A stretch of 43,754 bases of DNA from a virus, in the IMG/VR virus record IMGVR_UViG_3300037245_001420, positions 1 through 43,754 of that record; one strand, given 5' to 3'. The notes under the pieces are model-generated. The model was not told where the DNA came from. It ran no database searches and saw only the letters and a list, made by a program, of their open reading frames with translations. The translations under genes and the position numbers were made by a program. Positions 34,831 to 43,754 of the stretch are shown in pieces. The first letter of the stretch is position 1; each line of letters starts with the position of its first letter.

Positions 34831-35727
34831 GTGAAGATAGGATTAATAGATGTAGACGGGCATAATTTCCCTAACTTAGCTTTAATGAAGATTTCAGCTT
34901 ATCATAAGAATAGTGGAGATGATGTTGAATGGTATTTTCCTTTTAATACATATGATAAAGTTTATAAATCAAAAGTGTTTACATTTACACCAGATCATTA
35001 TGGATTTATTAATAATACTATCGAAACAATACAAGGCGGTACTGGATATAATATTAATACTAAATTACATATAGAAATTGATAATTGCACTCCTGATTAT
35101 GATTTATATCCTATTTCTAATTGGTACGATAAAGAAACTGCATACGGATTTATTACAAGAGGGTGTCCAAATAAATGCGATTGGTGTGTAGTTCCTGAAA
35201 AAGAGGGTAAAATAAAGCCCTATATGGACATAGAAGATATTGCACAGGAATTCAAGAAAGTAATTTTATTAGATAATAGTATACTCGCATCTAAATACGG
35301 TTTACAACAAATAGAAAATATCATAAAATTAAAATTAAAGGTAGATTTCAATCAAGGATTAGACGCACGAATTATTGCTAATGATAAAGATATTGCAAAA
35401 CTATTATCAAAAGTAAAATGGCTAAAACCTTTACGGATGGCTTGTGATACCAGAAGCCAAATGAAATACATTAAAAAAGCTACTGAATTATTACGTAAAT
35501 ATAATACAACTCCACAAAGATATTTTATATATTTATTAGTCCAAGATATAAAAGATGCATTATACAGAGCGGAATTTTTAAAGACTCTTAATTTAGATGT
35601 GTTTGCACAACCATATAGAGATTTTAGAATAAATATAGAACCAGATAAAGAATTAAAACAATTTGCTCGTTGGGTAAACCATAAAGCAATATTTAAAAGT
35701 GTAAAATTTGAAAATTACAAACCTTAA
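34831..35727 (+). CDS. Radical SAM protein
   Basis: 298 residues with the cluster motif RGCPNKCDWC (C112, C116, C119) that binds a 4Fe-4S cluster and S-adenosylmethionine. The N-terminal 100 residues resemble a cobalamin-binding-type or accessory segment (MKIGLIDVDGHNFPN). Start is GTG. It stands first in a block with two DNA methyltransferases and a second radical SAM protein, so a nucleic-acid modification role is plausible but unproven. Confidence 0.85.
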   Translation: MKIGLIDVDGHNFPNLALMKISAYHKNSGDDVEWYFPFNTYDKVYKSKVFTFTPDHYGFINNTIETIQGGTGYNINTKLHIEIDNCTPDYDLYPISNWYDKETAYGFITRGCPNKCDWCVVPEKEGKIKPYMDIEDIAQEFKKVILLDNSILASKYGLQQIENIIKLKLKVDFNQGLDARIIANDKDIAKLLSKVKWLKPLRMACDTRSQMKYIKKATELLRKYNTTPQRYFIYLLVQDIKDALYRAEFLKTLNLDVFAQPYRDFRINIEPDKELKQFARWVNHKAIFKSVKFENYKP

Positions 35728-36519
35728 ATGAATATAATGATATTACGAAGATTAGGAAATAAATCTAAAATAGCAAAGGAAATTCAACAGTATTTCCCAC
35801 CTCACAAGATTTATATCGAGCCGTTTTTCGGAGCCGGGGGAATGTTTTTTAATAAGCCGAAAGCAAAATATAATATTGTTAATGATTTAGATTCTGATGT
35901 TTTTAATTTATTTCAAGTTGTAATAAACCAAAAAGAAGAATTAGAGAAAGCATTTTATATGATGCCTATTCATTCAGATTTATTGGAGTACTGGAAAGAA
36001 AAATTAGAATCAGATCCCCTTAAAAAGGCTGTAAGATTTTTAATGTTAAGTAATATGACTTTTTTAGGTAAAGGTAACAATATTGTATTTAGTGCTACTG
36101 GGAAAATGAAAGCATTAAAAGATAAATTTAAAGAAAGATTAAATTTAACATTCAATTTATTGTATGATGTTTCTTTTAATTGCAATAACTTTAAAACATT
36201 TATAGATTCAATAGAATTTCAAAAAGATGGCAGGAATGATGAAGCAAAAACATTTATTTATGCAGATCCTCCATATATTTCAACAGATAATAATTATTCA
36301 AATTCATTTACCAAAAAAGATAGCAATGATTTATTTGAATGTCTACAACAAACAGGATGTAAATTTGCAATGTCTGAGTTTAATAATCCGTTTATATTAG
36401 AACAAGCAAAAGAACGCAATTTAAACGTTATAACAATAGGAGAACGCCAAAATTTAAAGAACCGTAGGATTGAGATATTAGTTACTAATTATGAAAGTCA
36501 TCCAACACTATTCCAATGA
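35728..36519 (+). CDS. DNA adenine-N6 methyltransferase (D12 class)
   Basis: 263 residues. Motif I EPFFGAGG (31-38) binds S-adenosylmethionine, and catalytic motif IV is ADPPY (179-183). The N-terminus LRRLGNKSKIAKEI is characteristic of the Dam or D12 class. It transfers a methyl group to adenine in a short DNA site and may protect phage DNA from host restriction. It starts directly after the radical SAM stop. No partner restriction gene is present. Confidence 0.9.
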   Translation: MNIMILRRLGNKSKIAKEIQQYFPPHKIYIEPFFGAGGMFFNKPKAKYNIVNDLDSDVFNLFQVVINQKEELEKAFYMMPIHSDLLEYWKEKLESDPLKKAVRFLMLSNMTFLGKGNNIVFSATGKMKALKDKFKERLNLTFNLLYDVSFNCNNFKTFIDSIEFQKDGRNDEAKTFIYADPPYISTDNNYSNSFTKKDSNDLFECLQQTGCKFAMSEFNNPFILEQAKERNLNVITIGERQNLKNRRIEILVTNYESHPTLFQ

Positions 36520-36562
36520 AAAAACTAAAAACCTGCAAAGGATTTAACTTAAATTATAGAAA

Positions 36563-37210
36563 ATGTTAAATAAATCAAAAGGGAATATGTATCCATGGAT
36601 AAATTACACGTGGAATACAATTAAAGGTCAGTGTTACCATGATTGCAGTTATTGTTATATGAAAGATTGGGGCAAATTAAACCCTGTTAGATTCGATGAA
36701 AAAGAGCTTAAAACAGATTTAGGCAGAGATAATTTTATTTTTGTTGGTTCGAGTTGTGATATGTTTGCTAAAGATATTCCGGATGAGTGGATAATAAGGA
36801 CATTAAATCATTGTTCAATGTTTGACAATGATTATCTATTTCAAACAAAAAACCCTAAAAACATAAGGAGAATTTTACCACCCAAATCAAATGTATGTGT
36901 AACTATTGAATCAGATAAATATTATCCTGAAATAATGAGAAACAGCCCACATCCATTAAGAAGGTATGAACATTCATTATTAATAAGACATCCGTTTTTT
37001 TTAACAATAGAACCAATATTGGATTTTGATTTTAAATTATTCTTAACAATGATAACAGAATTAGATCCAATTCAAATAAATATTGGAGCAGATTCAAAAG
37101 GGCATAAATTACCGGAACCACCTAAAGAAAAGATTTTGGAATTAATTAATGAGTTAGAAAAATTCACGAAGGTAAAATTAAAGAAAAACTTAAATAGATT
37201 GATAAAATAA
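36563..37210 (+). CDS. DUF5131-type radical SAM protein
   Basis: 215 residues. TWNTIKGQCYHDCSYCY near the N-terminus gives C24, C28 and C31 as cluster ligands; later FVGSSCDMFAKDIPDEWI and TIEPILDF match the phage Gp37/DUF5131 group. The biochemical reaction of the family is not known to me. It is the second radical SAM enzyme in this block and is followed by a conserved small hairpin. Confidence 0.8.
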   Translation: MLNKSKGNMYPWINYTWNTIKGQCYHDCSYCYMKDWGKLNPVRFDEKELKTDLGRDNFIFVGSSCDMFAKDIPDEWIIRTLNHCSMFDNDYLFQTKNPKNIRRILPPKSNVCVTIESDKYYPEIMRNSPHPLRRYEHSLLIRHPFFLTIEPILDFDFKLFLTMITELDPIQINIGADSKGHKLPEPPKEKILELINELEKFTKVKLKKNLNRLIK

Positions 37211-37213
37211 TCC

Positions 37214-37238
37214 AACTAGTCGAAAAATTCGATAAGTT
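37214..37238 (+). promoter_or_regulatory. Conserved 3' hairpin, copy 1
   Basis: Just after the stop codon: AACT, AG, TCGAA, loop AAA, TTCGA, T, AAGTT form a nested stem. Copy 2 at 37886 keeps the outer AACT and AGTT arms and the CAAAATA that follows, but has a different inner stem with matched changes. It lacks a T run, so it is not a usual terminator. Confidence 0.5.
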
Positions 37239-37254
37239 CAAAATAGATAAAAGT

Positions 37255-37881
37255 ATGAAGATATTGATAGCATGTGAAGAAAGCCAGGCGGTTACAATTG
37301 AGTTTAGAAAACTAGGTATCGAGGCTTATTCATGTGATATGCTTGATTGCTCAGGAGGTCATCCAGAGTGGCATATAAAAGGCGATGCTATAAAAGAAGC
37401 CTATTCAGGAAAATATAAAATAATGATTGGGTTTCCACCATGTACCTTTTTAAGTTATGCCGGTACAAGGCATTGGAATAATCCAGGAAGATTAGAAAAA
37501 AGATTAAAAGCATTAGATTTTTTCGCAAAATTATGGTTAGCTCCAATTGATATGATTTGTTTAGAAAATCCGAAAGGTTGTGCATCCCCAACAATAGCAA
37601 AATATAGTCAGGAAATACAACCGTATTATTTTGGTGACAATGAAATGAAAACAACTTGGTTGTGGCTTAAAAATTTACCATCACTATTGCATTATGAATT
37701 AGATAACTTATTTGAACAAAGAACGCACACCAATAAACCAGAACCTCACAGTATATTAAAAACAACAGGTAAACCAACATATTTTGCAGATGGTAAAACC
37801 AGAGACCCAAAATTAAGAAGTAAAACGTTTCATGGAATTGCAAAAGCAATGGCAACTCAATGGAGTGAATATTTAAAATAA
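37255..37881 (+). CDS. DNA cytosine-C5 methyltransferase-like protein
   Basis: 208 residues. MKILIACEESQAVTIEF is a motif I-like start, GFPPCTFLSYAG holds the catalytic C63, and LENPKG (about 103-108) is the ENV/ENP motif. The short length and motif spacing match compact phage cytosine methyltransferases. It probably modifies phage DNA, with the adenine methyltransferase upstream. Confidence 0.8.
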   Translation: MKILIACEESQAVTIEFRKLGIEAYSCDMLDCSGGHPEWHIKGDAIKEAYSGKYKIMIGFPPCTFLSYAGTRHWNNPGRLEKRLKALDFFAKLWLAPIDMICLENPKGCASPTIAKYSQEIQPYYFGDNEMKTTWLWLKNLPSLLHYELDNLFEQRTHTNKPEPHSILKTTGKPTYFADGKTRDPKLRSKTFHGIAKAMATQWSEYLK

Positions 37882-37885
37882 TCCC

Positions 37886-37910
37886 AACTAGTGCAAAAAT
37901 TGCACAAGTT
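37886..37910 (+). promoter_or_regulatory. Conserved 3' hairpin, copy 2
   Basis: AACT, A, GTGCAA, loop AAA, TTGCAC, A, AGTT, directly after the methyltransferase stop and followed by CAAAATA as in copy 1. The inner stem differs at several pairs from copy 1 while remaining fully paired. Confidence 0.5.
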
Positions 37911-37925
37911 CAAAATAAACCGTAA

Positions 37926-38270: not shown

Positions 38271-38398
38271 AATTAACAGCTACGATATGGTAATAAAATT
38301 TAATACATTTATAAATATAGCCCTTTCTGGGATAAGTGATCACAAGGTTTACGTAGCTGTTAACTTGTGGTTTTCTTGTTTTAGGAAGGGTTTTTTTT
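38271..38398 (+). ncRNA. Pseudoknotted small RNA candidate with own promoter and terminator
   Basis: About 128 bases. Helix 1: TTAACAGCTACG (38273-38284) with CGTAGCTGTTAA (38352-38363), 12 perfect pairs. Helix 2: CCCTTTCT (38321-38328) with AGGAAGGG (38383-38390), followed by a run of T. Helix 3: CACAAG (38341-38346) with CTTGTG (38364-38369). Helix 1 crosses helices 2 and 3. No reading frame of note is inside. Not recognised as a known family. Confidence 0.6.
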
Positions 38399-39909: not shown

Positions 39910-40063
39910 ATAAACTGATTTAACTAAAATAAAATTGTAACTTGTATAAGTATATTAAATCAGTAAAATAGTGAAGCGGATGAAGTCTAACATTTTGGAG
40001 AATAAGGGAAGGTTTTAAGATACCTTCCCGGAAAAAGTTAATTATTAACGAACAATAAATATT
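39910..40063 (+). other. Non-coding head of the cassette array
   Basis: CTGATTTA and TAAATCAG form a long-loop hairpin (about 39917-39964). GAAGCGGATGAAGTCTAAC then resembles the end of an H hairpin and carries the first boundary heptamer, GTCTAAC (39985-39991). GGGAAGG (40006-40012) pairs with CCTTCCC (40023-40029) locally, an alternative to the long-range pairing of 40011-40024 across the next gene. Confidence 0.5.
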
Positions 40064-40416
40064 ATGAAATTATTTAAAGTGATGACGCAAGGAATGAAGT
40101 CTAATTGTACTGGTGTCGCTTATGGAACTGCTTACGTAGTGGCTAGCGATCCAACTGAAGCTTATAAGAAATTAAGAAGATTCTTAGATAATGAAGATTT
40201 AGGCTTTAGATCAGAAAGAGAGCTAGACACAATCGAAGTGATTGCAGATGAAGAGCAGTATAACGATGTAGGATTTATATTATACACCTAATAATATTTA
40301 TCTTTACTCTGGTATCTTAAAACTTGCCCTTGATTCATAGTTATACACTGTGAGTTTAGGGAAAAACTTCAATTGTTGTACAAGTTTTAAGGTGTGATGG
40401 AATATTCTCGGCTGTT
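39989..40416 (+). repeat. Array X unit around the gene at 40064
   Basis: Outer arms AACA..GAGAATA (39989-40004) and TATTCTC..TGTT (40403-40416) pair with a central mismatch. An inner arm, GTTTTAAGATACC (40012-40024), pairs perfectly with GGTATCTTAAAAC (40311-40323) across the gene. The right half has its own hairpin, AAAACTTG with CAAGTTTT (about 40319-40387). This is the most divergent unit. Confidence 0.55.
40064..40291 (+). CDS. Cassette gene, conserved small phage-type protein
   Basis: 75 residues beginning MKLFKVMTQGMKSNC. The middle GTAYVVASDPTEAYKKLRRFLD is a pattern I associate with small phage proteins. No catalytic motif. It is the first cargo gene of the array and has perfect inverted arms on both sides. 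Confidence 0.65.
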   Translation: MKLFKVMTQGMKSNCTGVAYGTAYVVASDPTEAYKKLRRFLDNEDLGFRSERELDTIEVIADEEQYNDVGFILYT

Positions 40417-40695
40417 ATAGCACAATGGCTTTTGGTTTTTGCGCTTTGGAGCGAGGGGAATTTTAAAATTTATTTCAATTATGGAAAAAGATTTAACAGA
40501 AGCTAACGGAATTGATCTACTTGATGAATTCGAAAAACTTATTCAAGAACAAGCGAGAAAACCTAAAACATTTGATAAAATTAAATACAAAAAGGAGAGA
40601 TTAAATATTGTCTACGAAGAAGTTTTTAGAAGAATGTTTAATTATGTTAACTAATTTTTAAATTAGGGAAGGACAGTGAGTCATTGTGCTATAAT
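40414..40695 (+). repeat. Array H-type unit carrying the gene at 40481
   Basis: TTATAGCACAATG (40415-40427) pairs perfectly with CATTGTGCTATAA (40682-40694) across the gene. Boundary boxes are GTTATAG (40414-40420) and CTATAAT (40689-40695). The left part contains GGTTTTTGCGCTTTGGAGCG, which matches the loop motif of H hairpins, so this is an H hairpin with a gene in its loop. Confidence 0.6.
40481..40654 (+). CDS. Cassette gene, small helical protein
   Basis: 57 residues from the ATG after CAATT; an in-frame start 42 bases earlier would lie inside the H-loop motif and is not used. Acidic and helical (GIDLLDEFEKLIQEQARK). Function unknown. Confidence 0.55.
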   Translation: MEKDLTEANGIDLLDEFEKLIQEQARKPKTFDKIKYKKERLNIVYEEVFRRMFNYVN

Positions 40696-41040
40696 ATTTC
40701 AAGTTATATGTGACGGAAATTTTTAACACTTTTTATATGGGATGTAAAGACAAATCAATATTTAGACAGAACATAACCTTCAATGAAGGTATGAAGATAA
40801 TTAATTCAATACCGAGAGGGAAGGATATTTTCGTGTTTAGAATAAGCCTAACGTCTAGTAGTTGTAGGTACGGCAAAGAAAAGTATATACTTTCAATAGC
40901 GTATAGAAAATGTGGGAATAAAAAGTGTTAGGAATTTATGGCTTATGATAATCTAGTTGTGAGTAGTCATCTTTGGTTAAGAGATGATCTTAATCGAAGT
41001 ATCATAAGCCTGTGCGGAAGGACATATAACTTGAAATATT
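40693..41040 (+). repeat. Array X unit around the gene at 40737
   Basis: AATATTTCAAGTTATATGT (40693-40711) pairs with ACATATAACTTGAAATATT (41022-41040) without mismatch. A second pair of arms, 18 bases each (40717-40734 and 40920-40937), is complementary with two G-U pairs and covers the stretch before the ATG and the stop codon of the gene. GGCTTATGATA and TATCATAAGCC form a local stem in the right half. Confidence 0.75.
40737..40931 (+). CDS. Cassette gene, small basic protein
   Basis: 64 residues from ATG 40737 (MGCKDKSIFRQN). A GTG at 40710 is in frame, but it lies in the repeat arm. Beta-rich with several serines and cysteines (SLTSSSCRYGKEK). Both the ribosome entry region and the stop codon lie in a long complementary stem, so its translation may depend on that stem opening. 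Function unknown. Confidence 0.5.
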   Translation: MGCKDKSIFRQNITFNEGMKIINSIPRGKDIFVFRISLTSSSCRYGKEKYILSIAYRKCGNKKC

Positions 41041-41120
41041 GTGAGTAATGATCCTTGCCTTTTTGAGCGTTTGAAGGGAAGGGTTTTGTGCGGAATGCCG
41101 AGCTGTCAATTAATCACAAC
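41038..41120 (+). repeat. Array H hairpin (type 2)
   Basis: Boxes ATTGTGA (41038-41044) and TCACAAC (41114-41120). The loop has TTTTTGAGCGTTTGAAGGG and TTTTGTGCGGAATGCCGAGC, almost identical to the hairpin at 42823-42904, but the left arm (GTAATGATC) pairs poorly with CAATTAA on the right. This may be a hybrid of two different half-sites. Confidence 0.65.
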
Positions 41121-41438
41121 ACCAAGGAAAATATGGGACGGTTTAATTTAAAACATTAAGATTATGAAAAAACCAAAGGAAATTAGAATTAGTATAATTA
41201 GCTTACAGCTAAAAGAGAATGAAATTTTAATTAAAATAAATGAAACAAATCTTACTTATACAGAAAAGATTAAATATTACACACAGCTTTCAAGTATATC
41301 TATTAAAATTTCAGAATTAGAAAGAGTTTTGAATTGAAATGTACTATGATTTTTTAGTTATGAGTAGAAATATTAGGAATATAAACTTGCAGATACTGAA
41401 GGACGTCTCCTGCGGGACGGCATATTTTCCTTGGTGTT
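41118..41438 (+). repeat. Array X unit around the gene at 41164
   Basis: AACACCAAGGAAAATATG (41118-41135) pairs with CATATTTTCCTTGGTGTT (41421-41438), 18 perfect pairs. TTTAATTTAAAAC before the gene pairs with GTTTTGAATTGAAA at its end with one bulge. The AAATCATAG helix is missing here, although CTATGATTT is present on the right. Confidence 0.75.
41164..41337 (+). CDS. Cassette gene, coiled-coil peptide
   Basis: 57 residues, helical, isoleucine- and leucine-rich heptads (ISIISLQLKENEILI, then SSISIKISELERVL), suggesting self-association. The stop codon lies within the right inner arm. No family recognised. Confidence 0.55.
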   Translation: MKKPKEIRISIISLQLKENEILIKINETNLTYTEKIKYYTQLSSISIKISELERVLN

Positions 41439-41597
41439 ATGCGTAAAAATATTTGGAATGGAAACTAAACTTGAAGATTGTAGATTTTGGACTTGCTATA
41501 ACTGTCCTTTTATAGATATGTGTTACAAATATCAAGAGGGTAGGCGAGGATGGAACGACCGCAGGGAGTTAGCGAAGCGGGAATTTTTACGCCTAAT
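41436..41597 (+). repeat. Array H hairpin holding a gene start
   Basis: Boxes GTTATGC (41436-41442) and GCCTAAT (41591-41597). GCGTAAAAAT (41441-41450) pairs with ATTTTTACGC (41583-41592). Instead of a short loop, the interior carries most of the gene at 41458, showing that H positions can also hold coding DNA. Confidence 0.65.
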
Positions 41598-41649
41598 ATT
41601 TGGGAAATATGGGACGGAATTTGAGGGTGTAAAATCATCAACACTATGA
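41458..41649 (+). CDS. Cassette gene in an H hairpin, cysteine-rich protein
   Basis: 63 residues from METKLEDCRFW. CRFWTCYNCPFIDMC suggests a zinc- or cluster-binding site in the first 22 residues. The later part (RRELAKREFLRLIFGKYG) reads through the H right arm and X left arm, so its C-terminus is made of repeat sequence and may be non-essential. It could have been longer before insertion into the array. Confidence 0.5.
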   Translation: METKLEDCRFWTCYNCPFIDMCYKYQEGRRGWNDRRELAKREFLRLIFGKYGTEFEGVKSSTL

Positions 41650-41681
41650 AAGTAAAGAGTTTATTATTAAATATTTTTTAA
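41646..41681 (+). CDS. Possible leader peptide
   Basis: An 11-codon frame (MKVKSLLLNIF) whose stop codon touches a strong Shine-Dalgarno sequence, AGGAGG at 41681-41686. Such an arrangement could couple its translation to the next gene. Expression is unproven. Confidence 0.25.
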   Translation: MKVKSLLLNIF

Positions 41682-41693
41682 GGAGGGAATTTT

Positions 41694-41870
41694 ATGAAAT
41701 TTAAAAAAGGAGACCAGGCAATAATAACTGATGATAGTAATTTACGTCATCTTAGAATAATGGATAAAGTTACAATCAAGATAGTTGATCCTTTATCTAC
41801 AATCTTAACATATTACGTAGAAGATATTAATGGTATAGGACAATGGGTATCTGAAAATCAGATAGCATAA
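41694..41870 (+). CDS. Cassette gene, small SH3-like protein
   Basis: 58 residues. FKKGDQAIITDD at the start and YYVEDINGIGQWVSENQI at the end are typical of small SH3-like barrels found in phage and mobile-element proteins. It is preceded by AGGAGG seven bases before the ATG, a signal that is rare in Bacteroidota and in the rest of this window, so the gene may come from another kind of host. Function unknown. Confidence 0.6.
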   Translation: MKFKKGDQAIITDDSNLRHLRIMDKVTIKIVDPLSTILTYYVEDINGIGQWVSENQIA

Positions 41871-41883
41871 AAATTTAGAAACT

Positions 41884-42159
41884 ATGAAAAAAAAGTACGA
41901 CATGAAACCAATAGTTGATTTAATGGATAACTCTATTAATAAACTGAAAAAATTAGTACCAAAAGAACATCAATTAATTTGCAGCGATTGTGGACAAATC
42001 ATAGACATGAGAGATTTAAGCCAAGTTTTCGCACATGAGCCTTGTGATGGCATTCAGAAAAATTACAATGATGTTGAACAAATACCATACTCATCTAGTC
42101 AGAAAATAGGAGAACCTATAATTTGGACAAAAGACAAGAGAGCTATACACTTAAATTAA
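41884..42159 (+). CDS. Cassette gene with zinc-ribbon-like motif
   Basis: 91 residues. LICSDCGQIIDMRDLSQVFAHEPC gives CxxC plus a later histidine and cysteine, a plausible zinc site (residues 48-69). The N-terminus is helical and basic. It is second in a two-gene cassette, 13 bases after the SH3-like gene. No function assigned. Confidence 0.6.
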   Translation: MKKKYDMKPIVDLMDNSINKLKKLVPKEHQLICSDCGQIIDMRDLSQVFAHEPCDGIQKNYNDVEQIPYSSSQKIGEPIIWTKDKRAIHLN

Positions 42160-42505
42160 ACAGTTTAGAATAAACTGAAAAAGCGTAGGCAAAAAAATAT
42201 TTAATATTAAGATAAACCAATACTATGAAAAAAGACTCTCAAATTCTGTTCTATGATTTCTTAGTTGTGCATATGTTGCAGGAATGCTACGAACTATCAG
42301 ATAACTAAGAAAGTGGGACGGATTATTTCCCAAATATTGGGCATAATTGGTTTTGGTTGTGTGTTAGCCTGGTGAGGGTTTTTGCGGGAAGCGGTGAGCA
42401 ATTATGCCTAATGTTTCAGTAAATATGGGACGGGTTTTTAAGGGTAGAATCATAGTGATGATTATATATAATAAATTAAATGTTTAATTAAAAAGTAATA
42501 AAATT
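42160..42505 (+). other. Non-coding array junction
   Basis: 346 bases without a credible gene. A short frame beginning MKKDSQILFYDF at 42224 runs into the repeat and is probably an extended form of the repeat frame noted elsewhere. The rest consists of the right half of the X unit that ends at 42338, the H hairpin at 42336-42412 and the left half of the next unit. Confidence 0.6.
42336..42412 (+). repeat. Array H hairpin (type 1)
   Basis: Boxes ATTGGGC (42336-42342) and GCCTAAT (42406-42412). The loop is identical to the copy at 55-131. Only the last bases of the right box differ (TAAT here, CAAC there), matching the cassette that follows. Confidence 0.75.
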
Positions 42506-42825
42506 ATGACAGTTAAAGAATTGAAAGAGAAACTGAATAAATTTCCAGACAATACAGATGTATTTGTAGATGAAAGATACACTGAATTTACTTATGGAAT
42601 CGTAAACTCAGTACACATGATGGAAATTGATTTAGTTGAAGAACCAGGAGGTGATTCACTTGCTCAGCAAGATGTAGTTATAATTAGTGAAGAATAATTT
42701 TATGGGTTCAAGGCTTCTGCCCTTAAAAACATGTCCTATGATTTATTAGTTGTGAGTCGTTGACAGTTATGGCAGGAACTGTCAGACACGTACAGAGGTG
42801 CGGAAGCCTTATTTACTGAAACATT
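42410..42825 (+). repeat. Array X unit around the gene at 42506
   Basis: AATGTTTCAGTAAATA (42410-42425) pairs with TATTTACTGAAACATT (42810-42825). GTTTTTAAGGG (42434-42444) pairs with CCCTTAAAAAC (42720-42730), and AATCATAG (42448-42455) with CTATGATT (42736-42743). GACAGTT and AACTGTC form a local hairpin in the right half. Confidence 0.8.
42506..42697 (+). CDS. Cassette gene, small conserved phage-type protein
   Basis: 63 residues beginning MTVKELKEKLNKFPDNTDVFV, a start shared by many small phage proteins of unknown role. The middle is beta-rich and the end acidic. The ATG follows AATAAAATT. Enclosed by fully matched arms. Confidence 0.65.
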   Translation: MTVKELKEKLNKFPDNTDVFVDERYTEFTYGIVNSVHMMEIDLVEEPGGDSLAQQDVVIISEE

Positions 42826-42904
42826 GTGATTAATTGTGTTGCCTTTTTGAGCGTTTGAAGGGAAGGGTTTTGTGCGGAATGCCGAGCTGTCAATTAATCA
42901 CAAC
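42823..42904 (+). repeat. Array H hairpin (type 2)
   Basis: Boxes ATTGTGA (42823-42829) and TCACAAC (42898-42904); TGTGATTAATTG pairs with CAATTAATCACA. The loop matches that of 41038-41120 closely. Confidence 0.75.
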
Positions 42905-43300
42905 GCTTCAGGAAATATGGGATGGCTTTTTAAGGGCAAATCATAGCCCTATCTATTATATATAAATTTAATATTAATCACTAAAGAAAGAAAATTATGA
43001 AAACTAAATTTGTTGAAGAAAAGACAAAAAAGAGTTTAGCTGTCAAGGACGGCATAATTCCTGTTGTAAAATGGGATAAAGTTACTATTAACGAGATAAA
43101 TTATAGTGTAATATCATGGCGTTTCGATATTGATATGGAATTATATTATGTTTATTTAGAAGTCTAATAATTTTATGGAGATCATTGGGAAGGCCCTTGA
43201 AAAGCTTTCCTATGATTTACTTGTTAGGTTTAGTTGACTTAGGTAGGTAGTCCGTTTCGGATAGCTGAGATTGTGCGTAAGCCTTATTTTCTGAAGCGTT
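42902..43300 (+). repeat. Array X unit around the gene at 42997
   Basis: AACGCTTCAGGAAATA (42902-42917) pairs with TATTTTCTGAAGCGTT (43285-43300) with one G-T pair. GCTTTTTAAGGGC (42925-42937) pairs with GCCCTTGAAAAGC (43193-43205) with one G-T pair. AAATCATAG (42938-42946) pairs with CTATGATTT (43210-43218). Confidence 0.8.
42997..43167 (+). CDS. Cassette gene, small unknown protein
   Basis: 56 residues, basic N-terminus (MKTKFVEEKTKKS) and a beta-rich end (INYSVISWRFDIDMELYYVY). No motif. The ATG follows a purine-rich leader (AAAGAAAGAAAATTATG). The flanks on both sides, about 300 bases, hold only array repeats. Confidence 0.55.
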   Translation: MKTKFVEEKTKKSLAVKDGIIPVVKWDKVTINEINYSVISWRFDIDMELYYVYLEV

Positions 43301-43382
43301 AAGGTTCAATTGAACTGGTTTTTGTGGGCTGTTGTAGGGTGGATATTTTGTGTGGAAGCCGTGCGGTCAATTGAACCTTAAT
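43298..43382 (+). repeat. Array H hairpin (type 3)
   Basis: Boxes GTTAAGG (43298-43304) and CCTTAAT (43376-43382). AAGGTTCAATTGA pairs with TCAATTGAACCTT. The loop is related to but distinct from types 1 and 2 (TTTTGTGTGGAAGCCGTGCGG). Confidence 0.75.
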
Positions 43383-43738
43383 ATTTGGGAAATATGGGAC
43401 GGAATTTGAGGGTACTCAAAATCATAGTCTCACAAAGAAATGAATTTAATATTAACTAATATATAATAAAATTATGACACTTGAAATTAGAGAGTATGAA
43501 TATGATGATTCAGATGCAATGAAAAGATTTGTATCTTGCTTGCGTAAAGATAACTTAATAAATATACACTATTGTTCCAATATAGATAAATATTTTGTGT
43601 ATTACTGGGTATAATTTTATGAACTATACACACGACTCTCAAATTCTGTTCTATGATTTCTTAGTTGTGCATATGTTGCAGGAATGCTACGAACTATCAG
43701 ATAACTAAGAAAGTGGGACGGATTATTTCCCAAATATT
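43380..43738 (+). repeat. Array X unit around the gene at 43474
   Basis: AATATTTGGGAAAT (43380-43393) pairs with ATTTCCCAAATATT (43725-43738). GAATTTGAG (43402-43410) pairs with CTCAAATTC (43638-43646). AAATCATAG (43419-43427) pairs with CTATGATTT (43651-43659). Its repeat sequences are almost identical to those of the unit at 604-970. Confidence 0.8.
43474..43614 (+). CDS. Cassette gene, very small protein
   Basis: 46 residues, acidic start (MTLEIREYEYDDSDAM), two cysteines, an aromatic end (KYFVYYWV). The leader AACTAATATATAATAAAATT before its ATG is nearly the same as that of the gene at 697, so the two cassettes share a recent origin for their flanks, though the genes differ. Function unknown. 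Confidence 0.5.
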   Translation: MTLEIREYEYDDSDAMKRFVSCLRKDNLINIHYCSNIDKYFVYYWV

Positions 43739-43754
43739 GGGCATAATTGGTTTT
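43682..43754. repeat. Direct terminal repeat, right copy
   Basis: Identical to positions 1-73. It covers the right arm of an ORF-spanning stem and the beginning of an inter-gene hairpin that continues at position 74. Array features in this region should be read across the junction. Confidence 0.9.

Follow-up and report, generated by a model that had tools for sequence, protein, structure and literature searches.

A tailed-phage cassette array, probably integron-like, with small genes enclosed in the loops of attC-like sites

Integrons combine a tyrosine recombinase, IntI, with an attI site beside it and an array of small genes associated with attC sites. The bottom strand of attC is cleaved between A and C (PMC2727003), and the catalytic domain of IntI carries a specific insertion (PMC8138268). 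Qi et al. (2023; PMC9892861) have reported integron parts and clusters of attC sites in phages, virulent ones included, and on that account integrons in phages are already known. Hairpins formed by attC in mRNA are reported to impede ribosomes, and short ORFs in attC to relieve this effect (Jacquier 2009, reviewed in PMC8876359). Here we describe a viral stretch of 43,754 nt, referred to as the window, in which a tyrosine recombinase gene is preceded by a series of units. We consider it likely that these units are attC-like sites in an integron-like array borne by a phage, and that the terminal loop of the sites holds cargo genes.

PHROGs profiles matched terminase, portal, virion structural protein (capsid-type), tape measure and endolysin genes in the window, which is therefore taken to be a tailed phage. 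Its ends (1-73 and 43682-43754) share 73 nt, suggesting a circular genome; this terminal overlap sits in a cassette that is repeated elsewhere (42234-42354, 868-1044), so that closure of the contig and the copy number of the cassettes are uncertain. Outside the array, a Radical-SAM-like protein, a D12 adenine methyltransferase, a DUF5131-like protein and a 208-aa protein are encoded in a row (34831-37881), possibly as a nucleic-acid modification cluster. Two 34-nt repeats, 85% identical and each with a small hairpin, lie directly behind two adjacent genes (37212-37245 and 37884-37917), and a perfect 12-nt inverted repeat (TTAACAGCTACG/CGTAGCTGTTAA) with a 67-nt loop at 38273-38363 is possibly another structured element.

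The array reads across the window ends, from about 39989 to 43754 and then from 1 to 1044. The limits of its units were set manually, with repeats and inverted repeats as the guide; a first, wide listing of inverted repeats was too noisy in this AT-rich DNA, and a chain finder tuned to short sites failed to trace the array from attI. The features are as follows.

39989-40415, + strand: unit A, outermost unit at the far end of the array and a weaker assignment; outer stem degenerate, helix a long and shifted by 5 nt, ORF 40064-40291
40411-40692, + strand: body segment between A and B, paired ends (TTATAGCACAATG/CATTGTGCTATAA), ORF 40481-40654
40693-41040, + strand: unit B, candidate attC-like site and the site cited in the first-pass annotation; 19-nt outer stem, helix a, ORF 40737-40931 (64 aa), no helix b
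41118-41438, + strand: unit C; outer stem, helix a with two G-U pairs that reaches the stop codon, ORF 41164-41337
41437-41596, + strand: body segment between C and D, paired ends; holds most of ORF 41458-41649, which continues into unit D
41595-42338, + strand: unit D; scaffold as in G and I, a loop with two ORFs (41694-41870, 41884-42159), helix b
42410-42825, + strand: unit E; ORF 42506-42697, helix a 42434-42444/42720-42730, helix b 42448-42455/42736-42743
42824-42903, + strand: gene-less body hairpin between E and F, 80 nt (TTGTGATTAATTG/CAATTAATCACAA)
42902-43300, + strand: unit F; ORF 42997-43167, helix a 42926-42937/43193-43204, helix b 42938-42946/43210-43218
43380-43738, + strand: unit G; ends the same as in D (34 and 105 nt), different gene 43474-43614, helix b
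128-603, + strand: cassette H, with another type of site; ORF 282-569, approximate boundaries
604-970, + strand: unit I, the final site ahead of attI; scaffold as in D and G, ORF 697-846, helix b
1041-1062, + strand: attI-like junction CCAA^CAATTATATATAAATAA, a motif kept before the recombinase in most relatives
1100-1900, + strand: tyrosine recombinase, XerA/integron-integrase-like, catalytic residues kept, without the IntI insertion

Bodies resembling the E-F hairpin lie at 41039-41118, 42337-42411, 43299-43381 and 969-1044. These gene-less hairpins carry a purine-rich motif like GTGCGGAATGCCG, which resembles the GTGCGGAAG of the gene-bearing sites. Searches of the cassette genes against PHROGs and Pfam gave only two weak matches, to families of unknown function and both for ORF 42506-42697.

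The window yielded eight units (A-G plus I) and the viral contig L089 another two; with D, G and I taken as one lineage, eight distinct units (six from the window, two from L089) entered the covariation counts. The outer stem pairs at 83 of 88 positions in register against 28-48 of 88 when slid, and helix a at 58 of 64 against 14-41 of 64 when slid by 1-6 nt. Helix a starts immediately 3' of a GGGACGG-like motif, and its second arm, a', ends exactly 5 nt ahead of CTATGATTT or its counterpart in nine of the ten units, unit A being offset by 5 nt; the GGGACGG motif, CTATGATTTNTTAGTT and GTGCGGAAG are likewise conserved in the scaffold. At the first position of helix a, G-C, C-G, A-T and T-A pairs are all found among the units, and at least two Watson-Crick types occur in most stem columns, which indicates covariation rather than a fixed repeat. 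The outer stem and helix a are real, covarying helices in the eight distinct units, the exact scaffold being drawn from two records, and the earlier description of helix a as variable yet matched is confirmed.

The first-pass annotation had further placed a second inner helix, helix b, in most units, in an order that makes a pseudoknot with helix a. Five of the ten units (D, E, F, G and I; shuffle p 0-0.04) contain helix b (AAATCATAG with CTATGATTT) in full or for the most part. A, B, C and both L089 units lack it (p 0.34-0.91), and unit B is the very one on which the description was based. Its sequence is identical wherever it is present and so provides no covariation support for the pseudoknot; the covariance analysis that had been suggested for both helices upholds helix a, leaving helix b invariant and missing from half of the units. 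The pseudoknot is an optional feature of the units. The AAATCAT motif of helix b often appears to stand between short complements (GGGC/GCCC in F, 42938-42946; ACT/AGT in G, 43419-43427; GTGT/ACAC in D, 41618-41645; GGAT/ATCC in I, 628-650), as if in the loop of a small hairpin.

In unit B, the outer-stem arms (40693-40711/41022-41040) are 19 nt long and 100% complementary, and enclose ORF 40737-40931 (64 aa). Helix a (40717-40736/40918-40937) spans 20 nt, with 18 Watson-Crick and two G-U pairs, so that it is longer than the 18 bases first given for it while the two G-U pairs stand. These pairs and the reach of helix a to the stop codon were correctly described, and both recur in unit C. The further statement that helix a covers the ribosome entry region holds for units B and C only, as the start codon lies 20-70 nt from helix a in six of the eight window units. 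The fold of unit B is far stronger than that of dinucleotide shuffles, with z-scores of -8.6 as RNA, -7.6 as the DNA + strand and -6.8 as the DNA - strand. None of the units matched Rfam at the gathering score, and a lax threshold gave one chance match (E 4.1); this absence says nothing against an undescribed RNA class.

The recombinase at the end of the array has XerA_Arch/integron integrase as its best NCBIfam match (1.2e-45, below the cut-off of that family), and it scores 140.5 bits against TIGR02249, for which the cut-off is 265. When it was aligned in two pieces to IntI4 (2a3v), residues 201-265 of 2a3v (65 aa) stood opposite query residues 200-214 (15 aa). By this alignment the IntI-specific insertion of the catalytic domain is missing, and on that feature (PMC8138268) the locus falls outside the canonical integrons. 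A GIY-YIG endonuclease ORF (1897-2289) lies immediately behind the recombinase gene. Relatives of the recombinase occur in 78 viral contigs, most of them 46-76% identical and the closest (76%) in contig L008, one end of which carries attC-like sites together with a single long site in which an ORF begins, built on a scaffold other than that of the window. The best match was 58% in bacterial and archaeal species genomes, where matches were mostly from Bacteroidota, and the best-ranked match in cultured phages was 39%. The terminase profile phrog_2 matched ten of 25 contigs (22 recombinase-bearing relatives plus the window, L089 and L008), although this profile is insensitive and misses the window's own terminase. 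The terminase of the window was sought in 19 related contigs and found in none, and by that gene they are not close phage relatives.

In most relatives, AACTATNATATATAAA lies directly upstream of the recombinase gene. Its window counterpart is AACAATTATATATAAAT, and the array terminates in CCAA^CAATTATATATAAATAAG, 55 nt upstream of the recombinase start; a putative attI site adjoins the integrase gene, with the crossover point probably between 1044 and 1045. The relatives' cassettes upstream of the attI-like motif consist of a hairpin site, AACG...GTT, followed by a gene segment with pairing ends (TT...AA). TAAC anchors passed the same site finder in 53 of 678 cases upstream of the recombinase and in none of 462 downstream, and the lengths of the sites cluster near 42, 82-84 and 107-125 nt. 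According to mechanical ORF counts, the + strand ORF is the longer one in 70 of 73 of these cassettes, and thus the genes point toward attI; in 44 of 85 an ORF begins within the site and continues through the 3' arm of that site, frequently giving ..LNISDV.. in the protein. In about half of the family's cassettes, different proteins share a site-encoded leader such as ..FNESEENLNISDV.. (L015, L018, L036, L053 and others). A central spacer is discernible by eye between the R and L parts of the relatives' sites, whereas the window outer stems pair through the junction with no clear unpaired central spacer. The pairing AAY...RTT ends and the hairpin predicted on one strand match those of attC sites.

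Single mismatches in the relatives' stems are strongly biased on the + strand, with 159 G.T against 2 A.C in the sites and 137 against 7 in the cassette ends, which argues that the + strand is the folding strand. Cleavage of attC between A and C on the bottom strand (PMC2727003) agrees with AA^C junctions on the + strand here. The + strand is the sense strand and also, as judged from these junctions and the position of attI, the counterpart of the attC bottom strand. The first-pass annotation had taken the G-U pairs to favour a function in RNA. That step is not supported, because the sense strand is also the folding strand and the relatives' attC-like stems have the same bias, so that such pairs cannot tell an RNA function from a DNA one in this case; what survives of the interpretation is a covarying, folded single strand around genes, with wobbles on one strand.

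The contig L089 allows the units to be compared between two records; IMG/VR "viral" contigs may include host DNA, and L089 is one without a confirmed phage hallmark. It holds the scaffold of unit C, with 95% identity over 120 nt of the 3' flank, around another gene (116 aa in L089, 57 aa in unit C). Two compensatory changes (from CCAAGG/CCTTGG to CCAGAG/CTCTGG) set its outer stem apart from that of unit C, and its helix a differs in sequence while the pairing is retained. The left neighbour of this unit, C', is H', a relative of cassette H, whereas in the window H is followed by I, and the change falls exactly at AA^C. The body after C keeps its ends in L089 and holds another gene within. Such a pattern would be expected of cassettes with an AA^C junction, and from these two records the cassettes appear to be exchangeable at a single junction. 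Within the window, D and G share identical scaffold ends of 34 and 105 nt, and the genes between them show no DNA similarity, so that the scaffold persists as its cargo changes, the border lying near helix a. Among viral contigs, degenerate scaffold patterns found only L089 as a real case, 20 matches from one search being judged chance; BLAST of the unit flanks against all fetched loci likewise gave only L089 as convincing, and blastn of the array against cultured phages gave no match.

We propose the following mechanism for the array. On the + strand, a cassette would read C-[hairpin site]-GTT-[body]-AA, with AA^C as its junction. Once in single-stranded form, this strand would fold, and a single long helix made of the outer stem and the complementary ends of the cassette would surround the crossover point. 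The adjoining Xer/integron-type recombinase would then insert cassettes at the attI-like site (about 1044/1045), joining them at AA^C. Unusually, a whole small gene would sit in the terminal loop of such a folded site, closed by helix a, with varying cargo in a constant scaffold. The array, the attI-like motif, the recombinase, the junctions, the covariation, the strand bias and the differences in cargo and neighbours are all shown by comparing sequences; that this recombinase acts on these sites, that its substrate is folded single-stranded DNA and that helix a helps a site with a loop of 200-600 nt to fold are what we infer from them. The integron-like reading is supported by the covariation of the outer stem and helix a in a fixed register, by an array that ends at a tyrosine recombinase whose relatives mostly have an attI-like motif and attC-like sites, by the + strand wobble bias, by the exchange at AA^C in L089 and the reuse of the D/G scaffold, by the frequency of ORF starts inside sites in the family (44/85) and by the phage nature of the window. 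Against it stand the recombinase without the IntI insertion, the window sites that, unlike those of the relatives, pair straight across the junction, and GGGACGG, CTATGATTTNTTAGTT and GTGCGGAAG, which exceed what attC recognition should need. The missing insertion places the array outside canonical integrons, hence "integron-like". The assignment of site and body could be reversed, as the gene-less bodies (75-83 nt) have the size of the relatives' sites; the gene-less hairpins were set aside as attC sites because the AAC...GTT polarity and the relatives favour the gene-bearing units.

An unlikely alternative is that the scaffold works chiefly as an mRNA structure in cis, controlling the translation of the enclosed gene or the stability of its transcript, recombination being incidental. 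Strong RNA folding, wobble pairs on the sense strand and a helix a that in B and C lies against the start codon and extends to the stop codon would fit such a role, attC hairpins are reported to affect translation (PMC8876359), and recombination leaves the conserved unpaired motifs and the partial helix b unexplained. However, the start codon lies off helix a in most window units, helix b is invariant and missing in half of the units, Rfam gave no match, and the folding strand is also that of the attC bottom strand, while the recombinase, the junctions and the neighbour changes indicate the DNA level. Gating of translation by helix a could be at most an added effect, and at most in units B and C, where the start codon lies at helix a; an additional RNA effect of the fold is possible.

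Less probable still is another structured mobile element (a degenerate intron, a ribozyme-bearing element or a small transposon) inserted at integron-like junctions with varied cargo. Its elaborate conserved core of three helices and conserved motifs, the recurrence of one scaffold around different genes and the existence of group II introns that target attC sites would suit such an element. The units contain no reverse transcriptase or transposase, though, and match no intron or ribozyme family even at the lax threshold; their removal restores no uninterrupted gene, and in L089 the unit travels together with its body segment. Equally improbable is an origin as phage repeats spread by duplication and homologous recombination, whose stems copying has preserved and which serve no function now. 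D, G and I are near-identical and could recombine homologously, and unit A and cassette H are degenerate. Selection on a folded strand is required, however, by the compensatory changes that distinct units show across 300-750 nt and by the strong bias of the wobble pairs toward one strand.

If the integron-like reading is right, many uncultivated phages bear a form of integron-like gene capture whose recombinase lacks an insertion described as essential. This would challenge the requirements for an integron and point to a source of small phage genes that are exchangeable as cassettes; tools built on the canonical IntI/attC model would be expected to miss many such arrays. It also raises the question of whether a gene-holding loop can leave a recombination site able to fold and recombine. 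More tentatively, and with somewhat more doubt than belief, we suggest a class of viral integrons that fold the sense strand, with their own recombinase clade without the IntI insertion and with genes that start or lie wholly within the site. In such a class, one fold would be used twice, in DNA as the substrate for recombination and in mRNA as a structure, so that the movement of cassettes and their expression would be coupled, and scaffolds would be reused for changing cargo.

Compared with integrons (IntI, attI, attC), the array shares a tyrosine recombinase beside an attI-like site, an array of small genes, R''/R'-like AAC...GTT ends that would fold as one strand and an AA^C junction on the folding strand (PMC2727003). 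It differs in the recombinase without the IntI insertion, in sites with no clear unpaired central spacer, in genes that run toward attI, so that the sense strand folds, and in whole genes placed inside the site. The phage integrons of Qi et al. (PMC9892861) were identified with canonical integron tools and have classical attC sites, and the portions of that paper drawn on here describe no site with cargo in its loop. The chromosomal integrons of Treponema (PMC3607928) have a similarly unusual orientation, intI and the cassette genes being co-directional; there intI is transcribed toward attI, whereas the window array lies upstream of the recombinase with its genes toward attI. The effects of attC on translation (PMC8876359) also involve a site hairpin in mRNA and ORFs within the site, but those are short ORFs that aid reinitiation, whereas in the window the cargo gene itself lies in the loop. 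Finally, the recombinase resembles the Xer/XerA recombinases by its best NCBIfam match, below cut-off as that match is, and differs from them in that it occurs in viral contigs beside cassette arrays and an attI-like motif.
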